Below, one piece after another: positions 43,493-58,973 of a DNA stretch of 61,556 nucleotides. The first letter of the stretch is position 1. Each line of letters starts with the position of its first letter. The position numbers and the translations under genes are program-made. Source of the stretch: a virus; the IMG/VR virus record IMGVR_UViG_3300025165_000001, positions 1 to 61,556 of that record. The stretch is one strand, 5' to 3'. The notes below the pieces were generated by a model. It was not told the DNA's origin. It saw only the letters and a program-made list of their open reading frames with translations, and did no database searches.

Positions 43493-44107
43493 ATGAAACA
43501 AATAAACCTCTCTGGGAGAATTTTCGGTGCCTGGACCGTAGTTGCCTTTGATCGCCGAACGAAACACCATTATCGCTGGACTTGCCGCTGCCAATGTGGA
43601 GCAACTAAATCTATACGTCGCAGCACGCTGACTAGCGGCGAAACTCAAAGCTGCGGCTGTCAGCGGGCGGAGAAGGCTTTCCGTCACGGACTGTCGCAAA
43701 CGCGCACCTATCATACATGGGCCAGCATGAAAGCCCGTTGCTATAATCCAAGGAATGGAAAGTATCCGCTCTATGGTGGAAGAGATATTCGAGTATGCCA
43801 GCCGTGGATAGAGGATTTTAGAAATTTCGTAAAGGACATGGGCGAGGCGCCCAAGGGAAAAACGATTGATAGATTTCCGAATAACAACGGCAACTACGAG
43901 CCTGGAAACTGCCGATGGGCTACGCCAAAAGAACAAAACCGCAATAGGCGAGACAATCGGTTGATTACTTATGACGGAACGACGTTGCCTCTGGCCGAAT
44001 GGGCAGAAAGGGTCGGCCTGAAACCCCACTGTCTTCGTAAGCGTTTGTATGTTCATAAATGGCCCGTCGCGACTGCTCTTTTTAGGAAATCTCATCTCCA
44101 AAGCTAA
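43493..44107 (+). CDS. HNH-like homing endonuclease, antisense insert (204 aa)
   Basis: N-terminal zinc knuckle (WTCRCQCGATKSI...SGETQSCGC), then HTWASMKARCYNP, YPLYGGRDIRVCQPW and GNCRWATPKEQNRNRR, the arrangement of freestanding phage HNH homing proteins with a C-terminal DNA-binding helix. It is the only plus-strand gene within the late minus operon and overlaps the nozzle gene by 26 bases, as expected for an invading element. Confidence 0.7.
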   Translation: MKQINLSGRIFGAWTVVAFDRRTKHHYRWTCRCQCGATKSIRRSTLTSGETQSCGCQRAEKAFRHGLSQTRTYHTWASMKARCYNPRNGKYPLYGGRDIRVCQPWIEDFRNFVKDMGEAPKGKTIDRFPNNNGNYEPGNCRWATPKEQNRNRRDNRLITYDGTTLPLAEWAERVGLKPHCLRKRLYVHKWPVATALFRKSHLQS

Positions 44108-46547
44108 CGCGCCCCGAAATCCCCAGTATCTGCATAGGGTAGGGCTGTGTTTGTTGAATAGTAAGAGCACCGTCGAAGTCGTCGTCGGTTCTCACATTCT
44201 CCATGCTCGCCAGCCCCGTAAAGGGTCGGGTCGTTCCAGTTGGTTTCAGGGGCTTACCGTTCAGGGTGCCGCCAATCGTATTTTTTAACCGGACTCGAAC
44301 TATATCCCACGCACGTTTCAATGGCTCTGTGACTTCGTTCGGTATCGCAGGTCTGAGCGTGGTCAGCGTCGAGGTGAAATGAAGTCCAACCTCGTACACC
44401 GTGTCGTTCTCCGGTGCCTCATCAGCATCAAGCGTGACGACACCGCCAGTTACCACCTTTTGCGCGATGGCATTACTACCGATAATCACATCGACCGTCT
44501 CGCCTTCGAGATGATCAAGCCCTGAGATCGTAGTTGCGGCAGCGGCGATCGTGCCCACCTTGGCGCAATCCGTTTGTAGGTCGGAAAAGGCGCGCGCTGA
44601 CATCGTAGATGAGTCATCCTCGAAGTATTCCCAGAAACGTTTGGTCTCGCCGTTAATGGTGCGTTTGACGATGCAAAGCATGGTTTGCCGCTTGCCGCCC
44701 TCGTGAGGAAGAACAATGACGCTTTCAATATCGCCATCAGTCACGGTGCGCGCCCAGGCAAGAATCTCCTGCCGCGGCTTGAAAGTAAGTCCCGCTAAAT
44801 GGCCATTGTCCAACGGGTAGAAGATTATCGAATTAGGTTTCTGCCAATACGCCGGAGCATGTTTTGCAAATCCCATATCGCTGATCTGGCGCGCGAACAG
44901 AGTGGGCTCACTCGGCACGAAACTACTGGCGTCCGGTGAGTCCTGAAGCGAATAGGCTAACTGCACTATGTCACGACCGTAGCGTTGTATAATCAGGATG
45001 GCATTATCAACAACGATAGGTTGAGCGTGCATCGATCCTGCTTTACTGATCTTGGAAACAAAAGGCGTCTCGTCGCCGCCGAGAGGCGCATCCGCGCCTT
45101 GCCCCCTGGCTGCGTATTCTTGTTTAGCATTACCGATATAGAGGGATCCCAGAGAAACAAGCCATTGGAGCGGGTCCAGCCCGCCGTCGTTAAACGTGTA
45201 TTCGTAAGCGTCCGTTGGGAGTGCCCCGGTGGCAAAATTATAGATATCGTTGTAGCTCGGCCCCCAGAGCGTCTTGGGCTGAGTCGGCGTGCCTGCAAAT
45301 ACCAAGCGGCCCTGATGAATCGTAACCGTTTGCGGTCTCCCGCGCGTTGCCGACCAACTCGATTCTTGCAAACGCCATGCGCCAGCGGCTACGGCATCCG
45401 GGTTGGCGCCAGATGCGTCCGTAAGAATGGATTTGATTACGCCCTTCCCACCAGTCGGACTCGTAACCTCGGTGATTTCTATGGTGCCGCCCAACAACTT
45501 AACGAACTTGCCCGCATAGGCGGTGCGCAGAGCCGCTACGCCGCTAGTTGTAAAAGTCACTACGCGACCCACGGGTTCCTTTTTGTTCACGTCGAAAGCG
45601 ACCTGCGGAGCAAGGCGCAATAACCATCCACTTGCGGCGAACCCGCTGATCAAATCCCAAGTCACACCGGCTTGTCCAGCCGAAAAAGCCGCGTCGATCT
45701 CGAATGTGTCCGGTGTAGGTACGGCTGTAATCATGCGGATCTCGCCCGCCTGTGCTCCGCTCGTGAGTAGGACGGCATTCCCGACTTCGGCAACATGCCC
45801 AACAACCGTAACGGTAGTTCCGGCACTGGAAAGTGCTACCGGATCTGCGGTGATGGTCTGCGCGAAATCATCGAGCATGTCCACGGTCGCTTGACGGGCG
45901 TTATCGATCGCTGTAATCACGGCGCGACCAGTGCCCGCAATGAGTTGCCGCCCCTCATCGCCAGCCAGGAGCACATCGGACACCGTGCGAAACTTGATAT
46001 CCATGCCGGTATTAGCCCCGAGAGCGCCGGCTACGGCTAAATCCTCATCGGCATCGAATGAGGGTGGAGGATCGGCGTTGAAATTCGCCAACGTCCAGTT
46101 CGCGTCGGTGATTCGGGCAAGTTTCTGGATATCGTATGCTGGATTCGGATTGCACATGAAGATAAAGTCCGCACTCTGCTGGTAGTGAATGTCGCGCAAG
46201 TCTGCTTCTTGATACGGGCTGGTCAAAATCTCAAAAGGAACAACACCGTCAAGAACTGGTGCGCGATTTTTCAAAAAACGAAAATAACCCTCGCCCGCCT
46301 CTATCCCAAAGGCGTCGGTAACATCGTGCTCAAACGGTATAGCCATCGTGAACTTACTCGAATCCTTGACCTCGCAAATATACTGCAAGCCCGGCCTGCG
46401 GATAGAGCCGCCTTCAGGAAGAACCCAGAAGTTCTCCATGACGCGCACGCCGTTGTATCTTTTCGCGACGTCCGTGCGCGCTTCGATCTCTTCGGAGACT
46501 TCTCCTTGAGCAAGGCTGACCTGAACGAGTTTTGCTTTTTGTGCCAA
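44082..46547 (-). CDS. Tail tubular protein B / nozzle (821 aa)
   Basis: The N-terminus (LAQGEVSEEIEARTDVAKRYNGVRVMENFWVLPEGG) is the standard opening of podoviral nozzle/stabilisation proteins (T7 gp12 / P22 gp10 type), followed by a long beta-rich body. PLGGDETPFVSKISKAGSMHAQPIVVDNAILIIQRYGRDI near residue 490 is also typical. Forms the tail tip channel. Preceded by the tube A gene. Confidence 0.85.
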   Translation of the reverse strand: MAQKAKLVQVSLAQGEVSEEIEARTDVAKRYNGVRVMENFWVLPEGGSIRRPGLQYICEVKDSSKFTMAIPFEHDVTDAFGIEAGEGYFRFLKNRAPVLDGVVPFEILTSPYQEADLRDIHYQQSADFIFMCNPNPAYDIQKLARITDANWTLANFNADPPPSFDADEDLAVAGALGANTGMDIKFRTVSDVLLAGDEGRQLIAGTGRAVITAIDNARQATVDMLDDFAQTITADPVALSSAGTTVTVVGHVAEVGNAVLLTSGAQAGEIRMITAVPTPDTFEIDAAFSAGQAGVTWDLISGFAASGWLLRLAPQVAFDVNKKEPVGRVVTFTTSGVAALRTAYAGKFVKLLGGTIEITEVTSPTGGKGVIKSILTDASGANPDAVAAGAWRLQESSWSATRGRPQTVTIHQGRLVFAGTPTQPKTLWGPSYNDIYNFATGALPTDAYEYTFNDGGLDPLQWLVSLGSLYIGNAKQEYAARGQGADAPLGGDETPFVSKISKAGSMHAQPIVVDNAILIIQRYGRDIVQLAYSLQDSPDASSFVPSEPTLFARQISDMGFAKHAPAYWQKPNSIIFYPLDNGHLAGLTFKPRQEILAWARTVTDGDIESVIVLPHEGGKRQTMLCIVKRTINGETKRFWEYFEDDSSTMSARAFSDLQTDCAKVGTIAAAATTISGLDHLEGETVDVIIGSNAIAQKVVTGGVVTLDADEAPENDTVYEVGLHFTSTLTTLRPAIPNEVTEPLKRAWDIVRVRLKNTIGGTLNGKPLKPTGTTRPFTGLASMENVRTDDDFDGALTIQQTQPYPMQILGISGRVSFGDEIS

Positions 46548-46548
46548 A

Positions 46549-47178
46549 TTATTCTCTGATATCGTCAGTCAAAAAACTACACGTCATTTGTTCAGTCGGA
46601 TTTTCCTGGCCATCAACTGCTTTCGCGTCGAGCAATTGCATCTGGTAGAGCTTAAAAAGATCGCTCGCCTTTTCTTTGTCCGTATTAAGCGCCGGTGCGA
46701 GCCTTACGGCAAGAAACGTTACGAAGGCTTGATGAAACATTCCATCCCAGATGTTCGGATCGTCCACCCATTTGATGTATTCAATAATAACCGTGGACTC
46801 ATCGGTGAGAAGATTGCGCCCTTCTATTTCCCATTTGGGATAGCGAAACGTCGGCCAGACCGGCGGCCCGCTTTGCACCGAGGTCGAACGCGAATCGTTG
46901 TTGACTTGCAAGACGCGAAAACAATCCGCCGGCAAGGCGTAGGCGTAAGTCCAGTCGGAAATTGGCGCTGTGGCGTTCTGCGCCAATTGAACGCGGTCCT
47001 TGGCGAAGTTCCATGGATGGTCCCGAAGCATCGCGCGAAGCAACGAAACAAAATACTGCTTGCACTGGACGGCTACCGGATCATCGGTATCGTCAAGATC
47101 GGTGATCGGTGCCCGGCCGAGTTGGCCCAATGCCTCACTAGCCACAGCGGCGGGGCTTGTTTCGAAGATTACGCTCAT
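46549..47178 (-). CDS. Tail tubular protein A (209 aa)
   Basis: The start is at 47178, in an ATGA overlap with the glycosyltransferase stop. ASEALGQLGRAPITDLDDTDDPVAVQCKQYF..LRAMLRDHPWNFAKDRVQL and FTYAYALPADCFRVLQV-like segments are hallmarks of T7 gp11-type proteins. Forms the adaptor ring under the portal. Confidence 0.85.
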   Translation of the reverse strand: MSVIFETSPAAVASEALGQLGRAPITDLDDTDDPVAVQCKQYFVSLLRAMLRDHPWNFAKDRVQLAQNATAPISDWTYAYALPADCFRVLQVNNDSRSTSVQSGPPVWPTFRYPKWEIEGRNLLTDESTVIIEYIKWVDDPNIWDGMFHQAFVTFLAVRLAPALNTDKEKASDLFKLYQMQLLDAKAVDGQENPTEQMTCSFLTDDIRE

Positions 47179-47879
47179 ACGGCACGCTCCCATTCGAACC
47201 GTAGCGGGTTTTCCGGCCTGTACGGTACACGTTTGGCGCGCAGCGCGGGGTTCGTAGTCCAGTCATATCCCGAACCTCGGCGCCCCCATTCCCGCGTTGA
47301 AGCATCGGGGATATCGTTTCTTCCGTAGTGAGTGAGATATACGTCAGACAGGTCGACGTGCTTCGCGACGCGGCTTAAATTCGCCCTGAACGCCCCTTCT
47401 CCGGCGCCCCACCAACCGCTGAAATCCTCGTCCGTGCCACCAACCAACCAATAGAGGCTGCGTTGCAAGACGTAGCTGTTGTGATGCGGAGGCAGGCCGC
47501 GACCGTCGGCCCATTCACGAGCCAACCAGTAGAAAGTTCCAGGCTTCAGGCTCGGGAGAACAGCGATCAGCTTTTCGGCATCGTCTTTTTGGAGCAGGTG
47601 ATCGATATCCGTCAGCAGACACCATCCGTCCGGGGCGACGTGCATGCCGAGATTGCGGGCTCCGGGTATATTCCAGACTAGATTTTCCTTGATCCGATAG
47701 CACTCCACGGGAAAACCGACATCGTAAATATGCCCTGCGGCGGGATCGTTCTGGCTGCCGTCGTCAACGATTATGGCGCGAAGATGGGCTTTCACGGCCG
47801 GGGTGTAGCTGGCCCATTCCATCATGTGGCGGTCCAACATGCCCCCGTTCTCGTAGTATGATAAAACGATTGTGATCAT
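47175..47879 (-). CDS. GT-A glycosyltransferase, family-2-like (234 aa)
   Basis: The start at 47879 overlaps the membrane gene stop (ATGA). ITIVLSYYENGGML, IIVDDGSQNDPA, GARNLGMHVA and LLTDIDHLL (DxD metal site) give the canonical GT2 nucleotide-sugar fold. GWWGAGEGAFRAN near residue 150 fits the acceptor loop. Its stop overlaps the tail-tube A start, so sugar transfer is coupled to tail synthesis. Target unknown: virion protein, host glycan or DNA. Confidence 0.8.
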   Translation of the reverse strand: MITIVLSYYENGGMLDRHMMEWASYTPAVKAHLRAIIVDDGSQNDPAAGHIYDVGFPVECYRIKENLVWNIPGARNLGMHVAPDGWCLLTDIDHLLQKDDAEKLIAVLPSLKPGTFYWLAREWADGRGLPPHHNSYVLQRSLYWLVGGTDEDFSGWWGAGEGAFRANLSRVAKHVDLSDVYLTHYGRNDIPDASTREWGRRGSGYDWTTNPALRAKRVPYRPENPLRFEWERAV

Positions 47880-48070
47880 CGTTTCTTGCATCTCTCAATC
47901 ACGTCAATCATCTGCGTGCACAATACTAATCCTAAAAAGATCGGCACCATCCAGGAGAACGGGTGATAACCGAACAAGCGCTCAGGAAGCGTCGGGTCAA
48001 CGATGGCGACGACGAATCCCGACAGTAGAAAACTCGCCAAGGCACAATCCATGATTGAGCTGATCTTCAT
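47876..48070 (-). CDS. Two-helix membrane protein (64 aa)
   Basis: GGAGGTATTCT precedes the ATG. Two hydrophobic helices (residues 9-25 and 38-56) and a basic end (ERCKKR). Lies inside the glycosylation cassette; might anchor or flip a sugar carrier, but this is speculation. Confidence 0.55.
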   Translation of the reverse strand: MKISSIMDCALASFLLSGFVVAIVDPTLPERLFGYHPFSWMVPIFLGLVLCTQMIDVIERCKKR

Positions 48071-48087
48071 AGAATACCTCCCCAGTT

Positions 48088-48693
48088 TTATCCCAAGTAC
48101 CTAAACGCTGCCGCCGTAGTGCCGCCCATGCGGTCGGCAAACAATTCGAACTCTTCTCCGTGTTCTGCCATGTACTTCTTCTGGGCGCCGTATTGCTCAC
48201 CGCCCTTTTCGTCAAAATGAAAATCCTGCAAAACCAAAATAGCCCCCGGTACGAAGTGCGGGCGAAAGATTGTCATCGCGTGCTGCCAGATCGGTTCGAT
48301 CTTTGTGGCGTCGTCTACGTAAAGTCCTATCGGATATCCGGGCCACTTAGCCTCTCTGATATCGCCACGGTGATAATTGATTTCCACATCGAAGGGACTC
48401 AGGGCCGTTTGAACGCGCGCCAGCGTGTTTTCACCGAGCGCAAGATGAATGCCGTAAGCCGCAGCCTTTTCTGTCTCAGCCGCTGTAGCCATCCAGCGGT
48501 CATAGACATGAATCGGTGCGCCACTCTCCATGGCGCCCAACGCAAGTTGCGCAGTACCGGCCCCAAGCCAGCAGCCAACCTCGACAATAGCTGCCCCTTT
48601 GACAACAGCAGCCGCGTAAGCTTCGAGCCATTCACCGATCTCGACGCCCCCTTGGCTTGCAAATGTTTTGGCATATGCTCTCAGATCCTTCAT
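48088..48693 (-). CDS. Class I SAM methyltransferase (201 aa)
   Basis: The start at 48693 overlaps the previous stop (ATGA); the longer frame is an artefact. AAIVEVGCWLGAGTAQLA is motif I (GxGxG-like), HVYDRWMA the acidic strand-2 end, and IGLYVDDATKIEPIWQHAMTIFRPHFVPGAILVLQDFH motifs IV-V with a TylF-like layout. Probably methylates a sugar. Paralogue of the gene at 49421-49981. Confidence 0.7.
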   Translation of the reverse strand: MKDLRAYAKTFASQGGVEIGEWLEAYAAAVVKGAAIVEVGCWLGAGTAQLALGAMESGAPIHVYDRWMATAAETEKAAAYGIHLALGENTLARVQTALSPFDVEINYHRGDIREAKWPGYPIGLYVDDATKIEPIWQHAMTIFRPHFVPGAILVLQDFHFDEKGGEQYGAQKKYMAEHGEEFELFADRMGGTTAAAFRYLG

Positions 48694-49451
48694 TGGTAAT
48701 TCGCTTTGAGCCAATCCAGTAGATCCCACGGTTTTTCTTGTCCTTGGAAAAAGATGATCTTCGCATTGCCGGGCAACTTTGCCGTCATACGGTTGGCCCG
48801 CAGCCACGGCCAAAAATAAACCCCGTCTTTCATTCCCCAGCCGGCCTCGGTCCTGCCCAGCGCGTAAAGCATCCAGCCCTGGTCGGTGCTTAAAAACCGC
48901 CTGGCGTCTTCGGGCTTGCATTTCCCCCTGATGGCATCAAAGCTCTGCTCGCCGCGAAATTTACTCCATACAGCTTCCCGTGCCCCCGAATTCATCATCC
49001 ACATTGACGACTGATAGCGGGATTTGCGGTCATCGTATTTAATCGGCGCTCGGTAACAGATTAAAAAATCTTCGCTGCGACCGAGTATCGAATCCAAGCT
49101 ACCGGTCACCACGCAGTCCAGATCAACGGAAACAAACCGCTCACCAAATACCGCGCGAGATGCTGCGCTAAACGCCTTGAGCCTCACATAGCACTGTGGG
49201 AACTCTGGCAACCATTCCGGCGAGCGCAGGTCGTGCCAGTCATCCCAAAGCGGAATCGGGGTAATGAGCGGGTCGAATTCTGCATCAATCTGGTCGGTCA
49301 TCACAACAAACCTATGCGCCAGTGTCAGGTTCCGGTGAATCATACGCGCGCATGTATTCACGTGTTCCGGCGTGTACTGAGTCCAACATCGTGCATCGCG
49401 CCATAGCCAAAATACAATCGTTAGAGGGGCTTCCTGAATTCCCACTGACAC
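48690..49451 (-). CDS. GT-A-like glycosyltransferase, paralogue 2 (253 aa)
   Basis: LTIVFWLWRDARCW, MIHRNLTLAHRFVVMTDQ, FVSVDLDCVV (DxD site), SSMWMMNSGAREAVWSKFRG and AKIIFFQGQEKPWD match the paralogue at 49983-50726 block by block. The fold resembles capsular/LPS glycosyltransferases with nucleotide-sugar and metal sites. GTG start overlapping the upstream methyltransferase. Confidence 0.7.
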   Translation of the reverse strand: MSVGIQEAPLTIVFWLWRDARCWTQYTPEHVNTCARMIHRNLTLAHRFVVMTDQIDAEFDPLITPIPLWDDWHDLRSPEWLPEFPQCYVRLKAFSAASRAVFGERFVSVDLDCVVTGSLDSILGRSEDFLICYRAPIKYDDRKSRYQSSMWMMNSGAREAVWSKFRGEQSFDAIRGKCKPEDARRFLSTDQGWMLYALGRTEAGWGMKDGVYFWPWLRANRMTAKLPGNAKIIFFQGQEKPWDLLDWLKANYQ

Positions 49452-49981
49452 CCCTTTCCAGTGCCGGGTAAATGCCTGGCCTTATCGTTGAAAAATTCCC
49501 GTACCGCCCGGTCTACGCCCTTACCCTGCGCATCGTCGCCCGCGATTAAGCCGCCGGACTTTACCTTTGGCCACCAGGCTGTGATATCGGCGGCAATGCA
49601 GGCGTAGGCGTGGTCGGCATCGATAAAGACAAAATCGAGCGAGTTGTCTTGATAATCCTTGGCCGCCTCCACGGACGGCAGACGAACAACGTTGATCAAA
49701 TGACTTACGGGCGCCGTGTTGGCTAGAAACTCGTCGAACAGTGTGCCCTCAACGATTTCCTTGTGATCCTGCATGTCGGATGATCCCAGCCAAGTATCGA
49801 CGCAATCGAACGTGATCTTCTTACCGCTGTTGGCGATCTCGACGGCCATGAAACACGCCGATCGGCCTTTCCAGCAACCGATCTCGACGAAATAGGCCGG
49901 ATCCGGGGCTTCCTTGACGACTCGCTGGTAGACCAAGCTGAAAGAAAACCAGCCTTTTACGTGTTCAAAGAAATGTTCCAT
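49421..49981 (-). CDS. Class I SAM methyltransferase, paralogue 1 (186 aa)
   Basis: The start at 49981 lies just after the upstream stop. AYFVEIGCWKGRSACFMAVEI (motif I), TFDCVDTWLGS (strand 2), LDFVFIDADHAYACIAADITAWWPKVKSGGLIAGDD (motifs IV-V). This 'HxY...GG-iaGDD' set is typical of sugar or small-molecule O-methyltransferases of the Methyltransf_24 type. Alternates with the glycosyltransferase genes. Confidence 0.75.
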   Translation of the reverse strand: MEHFFEHVKGWFSFSLVYQRVVKEAPDPAYFVEIGCWKGRSACFMAVEIANSGKKITFDCVDTWLGSSDMQDHKEIVEGTLFDEFLANTAPVSHLINVVRLPSVEAAKDYQDNSLDFVFIDADHAYACIAADITAWWPKVKSGGLIAGDDAQGKGVDRAVREFFNDKARHLPGTGKGCQWEFRKPL

Positions 49982-49982
49982 G

Positions 49983-50726
49983 CTACTGATACGCCTCCGC
50001 CACCCAGTTAAATTGTGGTCTCTTCTCGAATCCATCCCAAGCCTTTTCACAGCCCTGAAAAAATATGATCCTGGCATCCGCTGGCGGCCGGTCGGCATAG
50101 AGCGCCGGATCAGCCCTGACGTGTGCTGCCCAGCTATACACGCCGTCCTGTGTGCCCCAAATAGCCTCGCCGGGACCTAGTTTACGGCAAATCCAGGCCT
50201 GGTCGGACCCTACAAAGCCCGCGGCGGCGGCCTCTAACGCGCTTTCCTCGCCTCTAAAATCGTCCCAAACCTGGCGCCTAGCGCCGGCTGTCATCATCCA
50301 CATCGAGCCTTGATAGGGATTCGAATGGCGCATCGAGGGATGTTTGTAGATCACGAATTCTTCCGGTCTGTCAAATAGAGGATCAAGTTGGCCGAGCACA
50401 AGACAGTCCAGGTCGATCGATACGAACCGGTCTCCGATAATCTCCTTGGCCTCAGTGCCGAAAGCTTTCAGCCTCACCCAGCAATGCGGCTTTTTAGCCG
50501 GCCAGGTCGGAATTTTCATGTCGCGGCAGTCCTGCCATAGCTGGACGGGCTTGATAATCGGATCAAACTCGTTCCAGGTTGAGACTGGCTTGTCGGTTAG
50601 GACAACAAAACGATGGGGCATATCCAGATGGCGATGAATCATTTTTGCCCATAGGTTAGCGTGACTGATCCGATACTTGGCCAGACAGGTTTCGCTTTGC
50701 CAAAGCCAACCGAGAACGGTCAGCAT
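49983..50726 (-). CDS. GT-A-like glycosyltransferase, paralogue 1 (247 aa)
   Basis: MIHRHLDMPHRFVVLTDK, FVSIDLDCLVLGQLDPLF (DxD), GSMWMMTAGARRQVWDDFRG and ARIIFFQGCEKAWDGF align with paralogue 2. First enzyme of the cassette in the transcription direction. No signal peptide, so it acts in the cytoplasm. Confidence 0.7.
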   Translation of the reverse strand: MLTVLGWLWQSETCLAKYRISHANLWAKMIHRHLDMPHRFVVLTDKPVSTWNEFDPIIKPVQLWQDCRDMKIPTWPAKKPHCWVRLKAFGTEAKEIIGDRFVSIDLDCLVLGQLDPLFDRPEEFVIYKHPSMRHSNPYQGSMWMMTAGARRQVWDDFRGEESALEAAAAGFVGSDQAWICRKLGPGEAIWGTQDGVYSWAAHVRADPALYADRPPADARIIFFQGCEKAWDGFEKRPQFNWVAEAYQ

Positions 50727-51088
50727 TATCCACCTTCGACGAAAGAGATGACTTTGTTGCCAGTGCTGTTATGGATGCAACTGAATTGGCCGAGCGGTAT
50801 GACGCTATCGAGTAACATCAGACCGCCGGATTGCCCCGCGGCAGGCTGCGGATTGAAAACGTAACCCTCGCCTACCACGGCAGTACGACCTCCGAATTTA
50901 CAGTAGATCGTTGTATCTGAGAGATTGAAGAGCGCTAGATATCGCCTGCTCTCGCGTTTGGACACCACCGTAGTTGACGCAGCGACATTGACATTCGTTT
51001 CTGTCGAATTGGTATCCGCGGCCAACCCGAGAGATTCGGAAATCCCAAGCAAGAGAATCGCAACCGCTATTAAGAAACCTTTCCTCAT
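50726..51088 (-). CDS. Secreted beta-rich protein (120 aa)
   Basis: The start at 51088 follows AAAGGAG. A signal peptide (FLIAVAILLLGISESLGLAA) is followed by a ~95-residue beta domain (RRYLALFNLSDTTIYCKFGGR...SCIHNSTGNKVISFVEG). It resembles small phage structural proteins of this kind apart from the signal. May be exported. Confidence 0.6.
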   Translation of the reverse strand: MRKGFLIAVAILLLGISESLGLAADTNSTETNVNVAASTTVVSKRESRRYLALFNLSDTTIYCKFGGRTAVVGEGYVFNPQPAAGQSGGLMLLDSVIPLGQFSCIHNSTGNKVISFVEGG

Positions 51089-51919: not shown

Positions 51920-54307
51920 TTAGAACCCTCCGCCGAATGGACTATCAAACGGACCCTCGAAAGGCCCGCCTGGAATCAAGAGTTGATAAGCACCGATATC
52001 GGGAACAACCGGCACAGTGTTGCCTGCGAAGTCGCGAAGTAGGCCGACGTACACTCCCGCTGCGCGAGCTGGCGAAGTGGCCTGGAGATGGAAGTCCGGC
52101 GTGACGGTGGAGACGAAGAGGGGGTCGGCGTTGATTCCGTTGAGTTCTTGACCGTATGTACCTTGCAGAGTCGCGAAACTAGATACGGCATTGTTTTCCC
52201 ACTTGACCAGTGAATCGGCTGGAAGGTTCGGGCCATAATGAAGATTGTAATTCAGTACCGGCGCAGTATCGTGGGTCGCGGACGAGTAGTATGTTTGTCC
52301 GCTGGCTGAGGAATTGCCTGTATAAAAGATGTTGTTTTTTATAATAGCGCCTTCGAGTTTACGATCTGCATCGGTCTCTCGGATGTGATTCACATTGTCC
52401 CGATTGACGTTTCCGATATACATGACGTTGTTTTCGATCAGTGTTCCAGTGGGAACACTTCCCGGCGCTACGTTGCCTATGTAAATAGAGAATCCCGAAC
52501 TGCCCCTAACCCCTGGGTTTGAGAAAATGTTGTAATAAACTTCCGTTCCCGTGCTGGCGTCAGACAGGAAGAAATTGTTGTTCCAATCGTCGTAGACGTA
52601 ATTAAATCGAGCAATATTTCCCGTTTGAGGGGTTGCGCCGCCCGTGTAAAAGCCTATCCCCGAGCCGTAGGACTGATGCGAGGTGCCACTCCCTGAAGCT
52701 GTGTTGTGCTCGATTACTACGTCGGTCGTGACTCCGTACAGAGCTATGTTATATGTGCCGCTGTTGGAGACGGTATTTTCTGAAATTAGCCCCCCAACAA
52801 CAGTGTCATACAGTATCCCGTTGCCCTGCTGGGTCAGACTAAATCCGTTGTCATGAATCGTGTTGTTAAGCACGCTAACATTGGATGAATTACCGATACG
52901 AATGCCATCGAGGGCGTTCCAATTCATCGCGGAATTTTGTATTATGACATTTGCCGCGCCTGTCGATGTAAAAATCCCGTAGTCGTTTGTCTTCGTAATC
53001 TCCAGGGAGTCAAAGATTAGATTGGTCTTTTCGGCGGAGTTTATGCCTCGCCGCTGCGTGTACTCAACACCAGGGCTAGTATAGGCGGTCGCGGGATTAG
53101 AAGTCGCGTAAACATAGAGATTAGACCCGCTCCAAATCCAATCCCCCTGAGAAGCAAGATCGCCAAGTATTGTTTTTTTCGCACCTATAACATCGTCAAT
53201 GGAAACCAGTTGTGATTCCGTCGAGACAGCGGCGTGCCATACATTAGTAACCCCCGCCGCCGAGTATGCGCCTATGGCCGATGTGTCAACCTTGATATCA
53301 TCGAAATACAGCTTAGCCGCATTAGCTAAAACTCCCGCATTGGTACGGATTCCCGTTTGACCTACCCGAAAACTGGAGGCTCTATATGTGGCAGTGTTCA
53401 GAGCAAAATTGCTATTTTGTAGCGACCCATCTACCCACCAGGCCCAGCCCCCTGTGCTGGCGTTGTCGCCTCTGTATTCCAGCTCGACATAGTGCCACGC
53501 ATTTGTACTTAGGGACGCATTTGTGCCGCCGTTGAAGGGCCGTTGATTTTGTGCGCCAATTTGGTCAACAGCCGATGCACCAGCAGTTTGATACAAATAA
53601 ATATTTGCGAGTAGTGTTGTGCTGTAATAAATTTGCAGTATATCGACACCTCGCGCAGTGCCGGTTGTACCTAGAGAAGTTCCAGCGGGTACATAGACGT
53701 AGCATCTAATATAAACATCATAGGGCGAACCAAGGGTGAATGTTTTTATGCCGTAGCCATCCGTTACGACGCCGTTTCCGGTGACGGTGAATCCATAAGC
53801 ACCGTTGTTTTTAGACTCCGTGGTTGCTGCTATGGTGCCACCAGTCTCCACGGTACTGATAAATTGCGTTTCGTCACCAGTCTCAGCATTAACGATTGCC
53901 AACCCCCCAGTCTCAACAACGTCGGCAGTCCAATCTCCCTCACTTGTCTTGTCGATATTAGCGCCGTTGATAATCGGCAGCGCCCCGCTCCCATACGCCC
54001 CGAACGTGACATGATTCCCCGCGCTCCCGCTGGATGGCACGGTGAGCTGCTCGCGCCAAGTATCGCCTTTTTTGAACAAGATTGAGTCGCCAGCGGAGAA
54101 TAATGCAGCGTTGATGTCGGCGATGGTTTTGAAGACGCAATCGCTCCCGGTGGAAGTAGAGAACGTCGTTGGATTGTAGGTGGTAAAATCGCAGGTGGCC
54201 GAGCCGACGTTGGTGTCGGTGACTGCGCTGTCCACATAGTAAGTTGTGGCAAAGGCGGGGGTCAGCCAGAAGAGGATGATGGCGAGAATTAGGGAAAGGC
54301 GTTTCAT
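51920..54307 (-). CDS. Secreted parallel beta-helix adhesin/depolymerase-like protein (795 aa)
   Basis: Signal peptide LSLILAIILFWLTPAFA, then TTYYVDSAVTDTNVG..., GDSILFKKGDTWREQL, a lectin-like insert near residues 150-320, and right-handed parallel beta-helix repeats (NVIIQNSAMNWNALDG, VSVLNNTIHDNGFS, VVIEHNTASGSG) to ~760. Similar in design to the 733-aa adhesin. Overlaps the coiled-coil gene stop (TAATG). Confidence 0.7.
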   Translation of the reverse strand: MKRLSLILAIILFWLTPAFATTYYVDSAVTDTNVGSATCDFTTYNPTTFSTSTGSDCVFKTIADINAALFSAGDSILFKKGDTWREQLTVPSSGSAGNHVTFGAYGSGALPIINGANIDKTSEGDWTADVVETGGLAIVNAETGDETQFISTVETGGTIAATTESKNNGAYGFTVTGNGVVTDGYGIKTFTLGSPYDVYIRCYVYVPAGTSLGTTGTARGVDILQIYYSTTLLANIYLYQTAGASAVDQIGAQNQRPFNGGTNASLSTNAWHYVELEYRGDNASTGGWAWWVDGSLQNSNFALNTATYRASSFRVGQTGIRTNAGVLANAAKLYFDDIKVDTSAIGAYSAAGVTNVWHAAVSTESQLVSIDDVIGAKKTILGDLASQGDWIWSGSNLYVYATSNPATAYTSPGVEYTQRRGINSAEKTNLIFDSLEITKTNDYGIFTSTGAANVIIQNSAMNWNALDGIRIGNSSNVSVLNNTIHDNGFSLTQQGNGILYDTVVGGLISENTVSNSGTYNIALYGVTTDVVIEHNTASGSGTSHQSYGSGIGFYTGGATPQTGNIARFNYVYDDWNNNFFLSDASTGTEVYYNIFSNPGVRGSSGFSIYIGNVAPGSVPTGTLIENNVMYIGNVNRDNVNHIRETDADRKLEGAIIKNNIFYTGNSSASGQTYYSSATHDTAPVLNYNLHYGPNLPADSLVKWENNAVSSFATLQGTYGQELNGINADPLFVSTVTPDFHLQATSPARAAGVYVGLLRDFAGNTVPVVPDIGAYQLLIPGGPFEGPFDSPFGGGF

Positions 54308-57230: not shown

Positions 57231-58241
57231 TCAAACACTCTCGTCGATATTAACTTGGATCACGCAGGTATCGTCACAGCGTACCGAGCCGCCGCTCAGC
57301 TTGACCATGGCAAACGGGTTGTTCCAGCGGTTCGGATCTCGACCCAGCTCCACTCCCTTAAACATTCCCATTGCCAAGCCCATGCCCATCCTTTGAATGC
57401 GCAGGCAGGAACGGATGTTGCCCGTCTTGTAGAGCTTCACCGATTCACGCCACTTGGCACCGTACCAGAGGGCATCTTTCGGAAAGCTGCCGGCGGTAAG
57501 AGCGTTGATGGTCGTGAAGTCGGAACTGGTCGCGGTAGGATCGGTCAGTAACTGCTCGATGCCTTTCGGAGAATGGAAAAAATACTGATCCTCCGGGAGC
57601 ACTGAGTTATCCGCCATATTGGTTCGCGACGTGCGGATCTTCGCCATTGTAAGGCCCGATCCGCCATCGGCGACCTGATACAGTGCGGTATCGAACGATG
57701 TCGCGGCCGATGTCCCTGCGCCTTCGTCCACCGTCTCGGCTGTACCCAGCGCACCGCCGGCTTGCGCCGTGCTCTGAGCCAACACGAGATCGTCTTTCTT
57801 CCGCTCCATGGAGAAGGCCAAGATTTGCGAAAGCTCGGACTGTGGATCGGTGAGCGTTCTGAGTTCGTCAAACTCATCGATGGTTACTGCGAGCGCGAAA
57901 TCGTAAAGAGTCGCCCGCCTTTTGGACTGCGCCGGGTTGGCATAAGTGGTCGTGCCGTCTCGGGCCAAGACTTGCTGCATGTCCTGCGATCCGATCCGGT
58001 TGAACGGTTCTGTTTTCCCTTTGACACCGGTTTTCAGACGCACGGCACCGTCAACCTGTGACGTTCGCTGCTGGGAGAGTTGCAGGACTGTCGCACTGAC
58101 TCCATGATGAAACCAACTTTCATTCTCAAGCGCTCCGCGTTGACCGAGTTTGATAAGAGGTTCTGCGAGAAACCAGATATTTGCGGCGATTGCCGCCAGC
58201 CAGACGTAGATATTCCGTGAGAGATTTTTTATGAGATTCAT
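57231..58241 (-). CDS. Major capsid protein, Phage_capsid_2-like (336 aa)
   Basis: Residues ~50-150 (LSQQRTSQVDGAVRLKTGVK.., FNRIGSQDMQQVLARDGTTTY, RRATLYDFALAVTIDEFDELRTL, MERKKDDLVLAQSTA) match the Phage_capsid_2 pattern: 'R-sr-r--v', 'FN-IG', 'R-T--D-e-A--vD--D-r-l', 'aRkkDd-i--A'. HK97-type fold expected. Residues 1-32 form an unusual hydrophobic helix (IYVWLAAIAANIWFLAEPLI). AAAGGA supports this start, and no later in-frame Met precedes the core. Confidence 0.8.
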   Translation of the reverse strand: MNLIKNLSRNIYVWLAAIAANIWFLAEPLIKLGQRGALENESWFHHGVSATVLQLSQQRTSQVDGAVRLKTGVKGKTEPFNRIGSQDMQQVLARDGTTTYANPAQSKRRATLYDFALAVTIDEFDELRTLTDPQSELSQILAFSMERKKDDLVLAQSTAQAGGALGTAETVDEGAGTSAATSFDTALYQVADGGSGLTMAKIRTSRTNMADNSVLPEDQYFFHSPKGIEQLLTDPTATSSDFTTINALTAGSFPKDALWYGAKWRESVKLYKTGNIRSCLRIQRMGMGLAMGMFKGVELGRDPNRWNNPFAMVKLSGGSVRCDDTCVIQVNIDESV

Positions 58242-58408: not shown

Positions 58409-58873
58409 TTAATTAGTTAAATCAAGAAGGTGTTTCCAGCTTTTACCGACGCGGATGGCCCGGATAGTTCCCCGGTCCACTCCAAGGCGTCGAGCTAAGT
58501 TGGAATTACTTTCTTGACTCGCTTTAACGAACAACACTGATTCATTATTTAATTTCGCCGCCATACTATGTTCGCCCAAACCGATCTGAGTAAGCCGCCC
58601 TTTGTCGAAAGCGTCGCGGCTATTGTCGGATTTTGTACCCAGAAAGAGATGCTCGGGATTTACGCACGGCGGATTATCGCATCGATGAAGAACGAATAAT
58701 CCGTCTTCGATCGGCCCCTTGAATAGGCTCCATGACGCTCGACTGGCGGTGACAATTTTCCCGTCAACCCAAATTAGGCCGCAATCGGTACGGAGCGCAC
58801 CCATCCACAACCAGCAACCCGTGTTTGGTTCTGGGATGTATTTTTCTTCAAATCTTTCCAATAGCGTCTTCAT
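58409..58873 (-). CDS. HNH homing endonuclease (154 aa)
   Basis: ERFEEKYIPEPNTGCWLW, then LFVLHRCDNPPCVNPEHLFLGT is the HNH_3 core (His, Asn, His), and the C-terminus (SNLARRLGVDRGTIRAIRVGKSWKHL) is a helix-turn-helix DNA-binding end. Its first 20 residues match the HNH gene at 25314-25829. Sits between the tRNA and the capsid gene. Confidence 0.85.
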   Translation of the reverse strand: MKTLLERFEEKYIPEPNTGCWLWMGALRTDCGLIWVDGKIVTASRASWSLFKGPIEDGLFVLHRCDNPPCVNPEHLFLGTKSDNSRDAFDKGRLTQIGLGEHSMAAKLNNESVLFVKASQESNSNLARRLGVDRGTIRAIRVGKSWKHLLDLTN

Positions 58874-58904
58874 CTTCTGACCCGGATGGAGAGGAACTCT
58901 CCGG

Positions 58905-58973
58905 TAGCGGAGCTTGGAATCGAACCAAGGGGAACCGGCTTATGAGACCGGCCTGAAACCATTTCTCCCCGCT
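58905..58973 (-). tRNA. tRNA-Met (CAT anticodon)
   Basis: Acceptor AGCGGGG/CTCCGCT (one G-T pair), anticodon arm CCGGT-CTCATAA-GCCGG with CAT, T-arm CTTGG-TTCGATT-CCAAG and discriminator A. The D-arm region is only 15 bases, shorter than normal, so the D-loop is reduced. CCA is not encoded. Could serve Met or, after modification, Ile AUA codons. Confidence 0.8.

Follow-up and report, generated by a model that had tools for sequence, protein, structure and literature searches.

The putative glycan cassette and its place in the virion operon

We analysed a 61,556-base virus record (IMG/VR record IMGVR_UViG_3300025165_000001; the whole of this stretch is referred to as the window) and focused on a cassette on its minus strand that encodes predicted glycosyltransferases (GTs) and methyltransferases (MTs) within the operon for the virion proteins. 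In transcription order the cassette contains GTa, MTa, GTb, MTb, a gene for a small membrane protein and GT2, and it is followed by the gene encoding tail tube protein A (Table 1). A preliminary description of the sequence had proposed this order; it held after correction of the gene starts, and the coordinates given there were right, with every cassette gene on the minus strand. The longer starts called by the open reading frame (ORF) finder (MTa 50098, MTb 48921) were rejected as artefacts running into neighbouring genes, and the conserved starts were taken instead. With the exception of the small membrane protein, each protein of the cassette has diverged homologues elsewhere, and these reading frames are therefore real genes. 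The 64-residue membrane protein had no relative outside a contig identical to the window (L004, see below), no equivalent at the same place in the other cassettes and no recognised Pfam family, and is probably not a core component. No membrane segments were predicted in the cassette enzymes.

The genes are tightly packed, and the earlier statement that most junctions are stop/start overlaps is a fair description of what is read from the sequence: ATGA overlaps connect GTb with MTb, the membrane protein gene with GT2, and GT2 with the tail tube A gene; MTa and GTb overlap by about 25 nucleotides; GTa and MTa are separated by 1 nucleotide, and MTb and the membrane protein gene by 17. The start of GTa has one base in common (TAATG) with the stop of the upstream gene for a 120-residue protein, which itself has an exact AAGGAG box at its start. 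The remainder of the virion operon, which runs from the major head protein gene via the gene for a 795-residue protein and several small genes to the cassette and the tail tube genes, is about equally compact (many intergenic distances between -8 and +11 nucleotides). The overlaps are therefore not special to the cassette, and taken alone they probably indicate only that it is co-transcribed and co-translated with the virion genes.

Table 1. Predicted genes of the cassette and flanking features in the window
Feature	Coordinates	Strand	Length (amino acids)	Predicted product or match
Major head protein	57231-58241	minus		phrog_3437
795-residue protein	51920-54307	minus	795	
120-residue protein	50726-51088	minus	120	Signal-peptide-like start; directly upstream of GTa
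GTa	50726-49983	minus	247	GT8-like GT-A glycosyltransferase, phrog_1962
MTa	49981-49421	minus	186	S-adenosylmethionine (SAM)-dependent O-methyltransferase, Methyltransf_24
GTb	49445 (or 49451)-48690	minus	251	Second GT8-like glycosyltransferase, GTG start
MTb	48693-48088	minus	201	SAM-dependent O-methyltransferase, clade other than that of MTa
Small membrane protein	48070-47876	minus	64	Two hydrophobic stretches (hydropathy)
GT2	47879-47175	minus	234	Family-2 GT-A glycosyltransferase
Tail tube protein A / head-tail adaptor	47178-46549	minus	209	phrog_394, E 1.7e-47
Tail tube protein B	44082-46547	minus	821	phrog_376, E 5e-129

Predicted folds and families of the encoded enzymes

GTa and GTb both matched phrog_1962, annotated as glycosyltransferase (E 2.2e-11 and 3.8e-11, respectively), and neither matched any Pfam model. 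GTa contains a DLD motif (residues 105-107) and the motifs SDQAW and FFQGxxKAW, and in a profile of 51 of its relatives D105 and D107 of the DLD, G148, D175, Q176 and W178 are invariant. When compared to the sequences of solved structures, the family profile recovered Skp1 alpha-galactosyltransferase (2.2e-4) and glycogenin (2e-3), and the DxD, DQ and KPW motifs of the family align with those of glycogenin. An AlphaFold model of GTa (pLDDT 94, pTM 0.92) yielded LgtC as the top Foldseek match (5.7e-9), followed by glycogenin (4.9e-8) and by GT6 enzymes (to ~1e-7), with TM-scores of about 0.5-0.6. As modelled, GTa has a GT-A fold with a metal-binding DxD, and by homology the same fold can be assigned to GTb. 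GTa has this fold and the DxD in common with LgtC and glycogenin (both CAZy GT8) and with the GT6 enzymes, but the identity is only ~15% and the sequence E-values are weak, in line with a separate phage family. Because the Pfam GT8 model was not passed (GTa unmatched; weak matches in just 4 of the 51 relatives), we refer to the family as GT8-like and not as GT8.

GT2 matches PF00535 just at the cut-off, and 26 of the 28 members of its family match that model; D39, D40, D91 and D93 (DD and DxD motifs) are invariant in the family, and its profile recovered chondroitin synthase and other GT2 enzymes from the PDB (1.7e-8). By these sequence matches it is a member of glycosyltransferase family 2.

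MTa matches PF13578 (Methyltransf_24) above the cut-off (E 2.5e-20), and by profile it matches the structures 4cdz/5i10 (SpnH) and 6g7d (MeT1) at 3e-8 to 5e-8. For MTb the PF13578 match remained under the cut-off (0.0015) and a profile of MTb-only relatives gave no match among PDB sequences, so that its fold assignment needed a structure model. The AlphaFold model (pLDDT 94) was closest to MeT1 in Foldseek (7.3e-11), followed by SpnH (1e-9), MycF (1e-8) and NovP (3e-8), and it retrieved CalS11 too. The best solved matches of MTb are sugar O-methyltransferases throughout: SpnH, MycF and CalS11 are so titled in the PDB, and we take the MeT1 and NovP structures to be of the same kind. Within the methyltransferase family an ExGxxxG motif is kept, and E38, G40, G44, D65, D128 and D157 are invariant in 26 sequences. 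MTa and MTb are thus predicted to have a SAM-methyltransferase fold resembling that of sugar O-methyltransferases, and their nearest structures suggest activity on a sugar. With MeT1, SpnH, MycF and NovP, MTb has the fold in common (TM-score up to 0.77, E 7e-11) and MTa shows profile homology, whereas the identity is 14-18%. The structure predictions and Foldseek searches for GTa and MTb hence recovered the two folds, GT-A and SAM-methyltransferase, that were expected from the preliminary description.

Two rival functions can be weighed at this point. MTa and MTb both match phrog_2675, which is labelled DNA methyltransferase, and phage transferases that glycosylate DNA are known (literature cited in PMC12619734); the cassette transferases might accordingly glycosylate modified bases of the phage DNA. 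We consider this very improbable, since the structural relatives of MTb methylate sugars and not DNA, the late position in the virion operon is ill-suited to protect replicating DNA, and the Pfam matches of the 48 other window proteins include no base hydroxymethylase, TET-like or thymidylate-synthase homologue. Neither companion base-modifying enzymes as in T4-type DNA glycosylation, nor other DNA-hypermodification enzymes, nor nucleotide-sugar enzymes were found among these matches. A further reading, in which the cassette glycosylates and methylates a small molecule that has nothing to do with virion or cell surface, is suggested by the substrates of SpnH, MycF, NovP and CalS11, which are natural products or sugars thereof; it appears slightly less probable still, with no biosynthetic genes nearby and a link to virion genes that is conserved in many phages.

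Origin of the two GT-MT pairs

The alternation of GT and MT genes had been taken as two paralogous pairs that resulted from the duplication of one pair. The paralogy of GTa and GTb is clear (43% identity, E 4e-69), but the methyltransferases are just remotely related: MTa and MTb have less than 20% identity and one short motif match (E ~1e-3), and their profiles match each other with E 1.7e-6 (probability 90). On the GT tree, the genes at the GTb position of six cassettes (the window and five others) form one clade (support 100/99), and the window GTa is placed with solitary transferases that other phages carry, closer to these than to GTb. On the MT tree, which carries a long-branch warning, MTa groups with other MTa genes and MTb with a different set, and forcing MTa and MTb into one clade was rejected (p-AU 0.0005). 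Given the separation of GTa- and GTb-position genes and the rejected methyltransferase clade, duplication of a whole pair was not borne out. Instead, the sequences support a single ancient duplication of a transferase that preceded the spread of the cassette; the GTa/GTb split predates the divergence of the phages that carry them.

Recurrence of the module in unrelated phages

Using GTa, MTb, GT2 and a GT profile as queries against 2.9 million viral contigs, we recovered the order GTa-MTa-GTb-MTb-GT2 in five further phage lineages (one without MTa and one ended by the contig). In L023, where most junctions overlap, the order is terminase-GTa-MTa-GTb-MTb-GT2-(small membrane protein)-portal; the full five-gene order, with genes inserted, is also present in L022 and L032/L033; L024 has GTa-MTa-GTb-MTb after the terminase gene and then ends; and L021 has GTa-GTb-MTb-GT2 between the major capsid gene and a neck gene. 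The cassette sites in other phages are thus the interval between terminase and portal or that between major capsid and neck gene. The terminase, portal and capsid families of these phages were not matched to those of the window, and the cassette has therefore apparently moved as a block between unrelated phages. A further contig with the whole cassette, L004, was discounted as an independent second case, as it is 100% identical to the window over 13 kb (13,148 nucleotides) and may represent the same virus. The module was not described in the literature that we searched.

Genomic association with virion genes

To quantify the genomic association we surveyed 80 loci of the GT family, which fall into 64 groups when clustered at 95% identity. 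In 60 of the 64 groups, a gene labelled as terminase, portal, protease, capsid, decoration, connector or tail was found at most four genes away. Virus contigs may be selected for virion genes, and the count was therefore repeated on the 28 contigs longer than 25 kb, of which 25 had a labelled virion or packaging gene near the GT gene (the chance of at least 25 out of 28 is 1e-5, assuming, as we did, that half of the genome counts as near). In the other three (L048 and the near-copies L077/L078) a PHROGs scan showed the GT gene to be flanked by terminase, portal and capsid genes, or to lie upstream of major tail and tape-measure genes, and thus all 28 long contigs place the family beside structural genes.

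A coupling to tail genes, and specifically to the tail tube A gene, had been proposed for the window. The link to virion genes stands, but a specific link to the tail tube gene is not supported. A podovirus-type relative of the window (L070; 27% identity for portal and 27% for tail tube A) does have a single GT gene in the second position upstream of tail tube A; in contrast, the podoviruses L009-L019, with a related tail tube A, have no sugar genes beside that gene in the stretches examined, and the cassette is placed elsewhere in other phages. The adjacency to the tail tube gene in the window is one instance of a linkage to virion genes in general.

The family was scarce in cellular genomes: one narrow pattern, run against 84,980 genomes of bacteria and archaea, returned just two loci, in Bradyrhizobium and Sphingobium, and within the Bradyrhizobium family a profile returned two strong and several weak matches from 249 genomes. 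Another genome of that family (L101) has capsid, GT and portal genes consecutively.

Functional interpretation and comparison with known systems

The closest known arrangement is found in the cluster O mycobacteriophages (Corndog), with the gene order portal-OMT-GT-GT-GT-protease, in which OMT is an O-methyltransferase (PMC4351075; Corndog gp35-gp38, Catdawg gp33-gp36). Glycosylation of capsid and tail tube by the Corndog-cluster enzymes was reported by Freeman et al. 2023, as related in PMC11600133, PMC12363180 and PMC12619734. Our comparison was made with the Catdawg and Firecracker sequences. Like the window, the Corndog cluster combines an O-methyltransferase and several transferases, encoded by contiguous, overlapping genes inside the virion operon; its methyltransferase belongs to TylF/Methyltransf_24, Pfam families in common with the window methyltransferases (although hhalign of MTa against Catdawg gp33 gave a weak match, probability 3), and the GT2-type Catdawg gp35 is homologous to the window GT2 (E 3.7e-10). 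It differs in having one methyltransferase instead of two, in the portal-protease location and in its actinobacterial hosts. Moreover, the Corndog-cluster transferases other than the GT2-type one, of which one is GT25-like, have no detectable homology to GTa/GTb (Catdawg gp34 and gp36 compared with GTa), so that the two cassettes are homologous only in part.

We consider it fairly probable that the cassette is expressed late and adds an O-methylated oligosaccharide to a virion protein, as an analogue of the Corndog cassette with a different principal transferase. The enzymes are predicted to be soluble and are probably co-expressed, and no nucleotide-sugar, flippase, polyprenyl or base-modifying enzymes accompany them among the recognised families, which fits transfer from host nucleotide-sugars to a protein synthesised concurrently. 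One transferase would take the first sugar from a nucleotide-sugar of the host and attach it to a structural protein produced in the same phase, for which the major capsid protein, the tail tube or another exposed surface protein are candidates; the remaining transferases would lengthen the chain, and MTa and MTb would O-methylate its sugars, to give a short methylated oligosaccharide. Transfer of the cassette as a block between unrelated phages and its retention in the virion operon would secure its co-expression and keep the acceptor close by. This analysis established the order of the genes, the folds, the conservation of the catalytic motifs, the recurrence of the block and the association with virion operons; from gene location and the mycobacteriophage precedent we infer the virion-protein acceptor, and the order of the reactions and the benefit (shielding of the particle, or altered adsorption or stability) are likewise put forward as plausible. 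The dedicated methylated-glycan pathway expressed with the virion, as envisaged in the preliminary description, is thereby the best reading in view of the folds, the structural matches of MTb and the linkage to virion genes; fold matches were found and the genes remain linked in relatives, so that this reading was not refuted.

Several points weigh against it. Support for a glycosylated virion protein is indirect in every phage that carries the cassette, the position in the virion operon sets the timing and not the acceptor, and the main transferase family has no detectable homology to the Corndog-cluster transferases. In addition LgtC, to which the GTa fold is nearest, is a galactosyltransferase that builds lipo-oligosaccharide, which makes a host-surface acceptor possible. 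Host-surface modification is the main rival: soluble enzymes at the inner membrane face would act late in infection on precursors of lipopolysaccharide core or capsule, and the altered receptor would stop released phages or competitors from binding to debris or to the dying cell. Pelagimyophage GT8 enzymes were interpreted in this way by their authors (PMC7029224), and the small membrane protein within the cassette would also fit. However, that protein is not conserved with the cassette, the GT genes are persistently found among head, connector and tail genes, and the polytopic glycosyltransferase, flippase and polyprenyl-phosphate transferase of gtrABC-type O-antigen conversion are all missing from the cassette. 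We therefore regard modification of the host surface as rather unlikely; between the virion and host-surface targets that had been offered as alternatives the virion is favoured.

Whether the cassette is in addition a mobile five-gene module for virion glycosylation outside the Actinobacteria, swapped as a unit between podovirus- and siphovirus-type lineages and characterised by an oligosaccharide on virion proteins that two different methyltransferases O-methylate and by a GT8-like core family almost confined to virion operons, seems to us about evenly balanced. In the literature surveyed, glycosylation of tailed-phage virions has so far been shown only in mycobacteriophages. A conserved, transferable cassette of this function in unrelated phages, with relatives of the main transferase in the genomes of Bradyrhizobium and Sphingobium, would turn virion glycosylation into a general phage strategy, testable outside mycobacteria. 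Antibodies are not encountered by most environmental phages, and the purpose of the glycan then becomes a question.

Other sugar gene clusters and additional observations

Tetraselmis viridis virus S20 (L003, NC_020840.1) resembles the window in having a virion-linked GTa-family gene, directly upstream of the head closure gene Hc1, and has a large cluster with GT2, GT-D, FkbM and other sugar genes between its head and tail genes; its enzyme set differs, without the GTb/MTb pair. The recorded host is an alga, yet the virion genes are those of a tailed phage, and the true host is probably a bacterium. Three siphovirus-type contigs (L005, L030 and L042) have two sugar clusters each: one before the portal gene, with GT2 and GT-D (PF08759) and in L005 FkbM too, and the other a GTa-family gene that stands alone immediately after the major capsid gene. 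A c17-c22-MT-GT block occupies the capsid-portal interval of L055, L057, L072, L073, L075, L084, L088, L092, L093, L097 and L098. It includes two conserved proteins (~193 and ~154 amino acids), of which c17 has no PHROG match, and it may represent a further glycan cassette built from new components. The GT gene at 2837-3694 of L007 contains an in-frame insert of ~40 residues that resembles a translated intergenic repeat.

Within the window, the 795- and 120-residue proteins encoded upstream of the cassette have secreted-like starts, which is unusual in a virion operon. A plus-strand ORF of 204 amino acids (43493-44107; homing-type endonuclease-like by motifs seen by eye) separates the tail tube B gene from that of an internal virion protein and breaks the otherwise one-strand virion operon. 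The Pfam matches outside the cassette, taken as a set, include an ArdC-type anti-restriction protein with a zincin-like domain, a Dam methyltransferase, RecT and pentapeptide repeats, and a beta-helix family was matched by 2 of the 48 proteins scanned. An HNH endonuclease gene (58409-58873; phrog_59, E 6e-27) and an adjacent tRNA-Met (58903-58973) lie immediately upstream of the gene for the major head protein.

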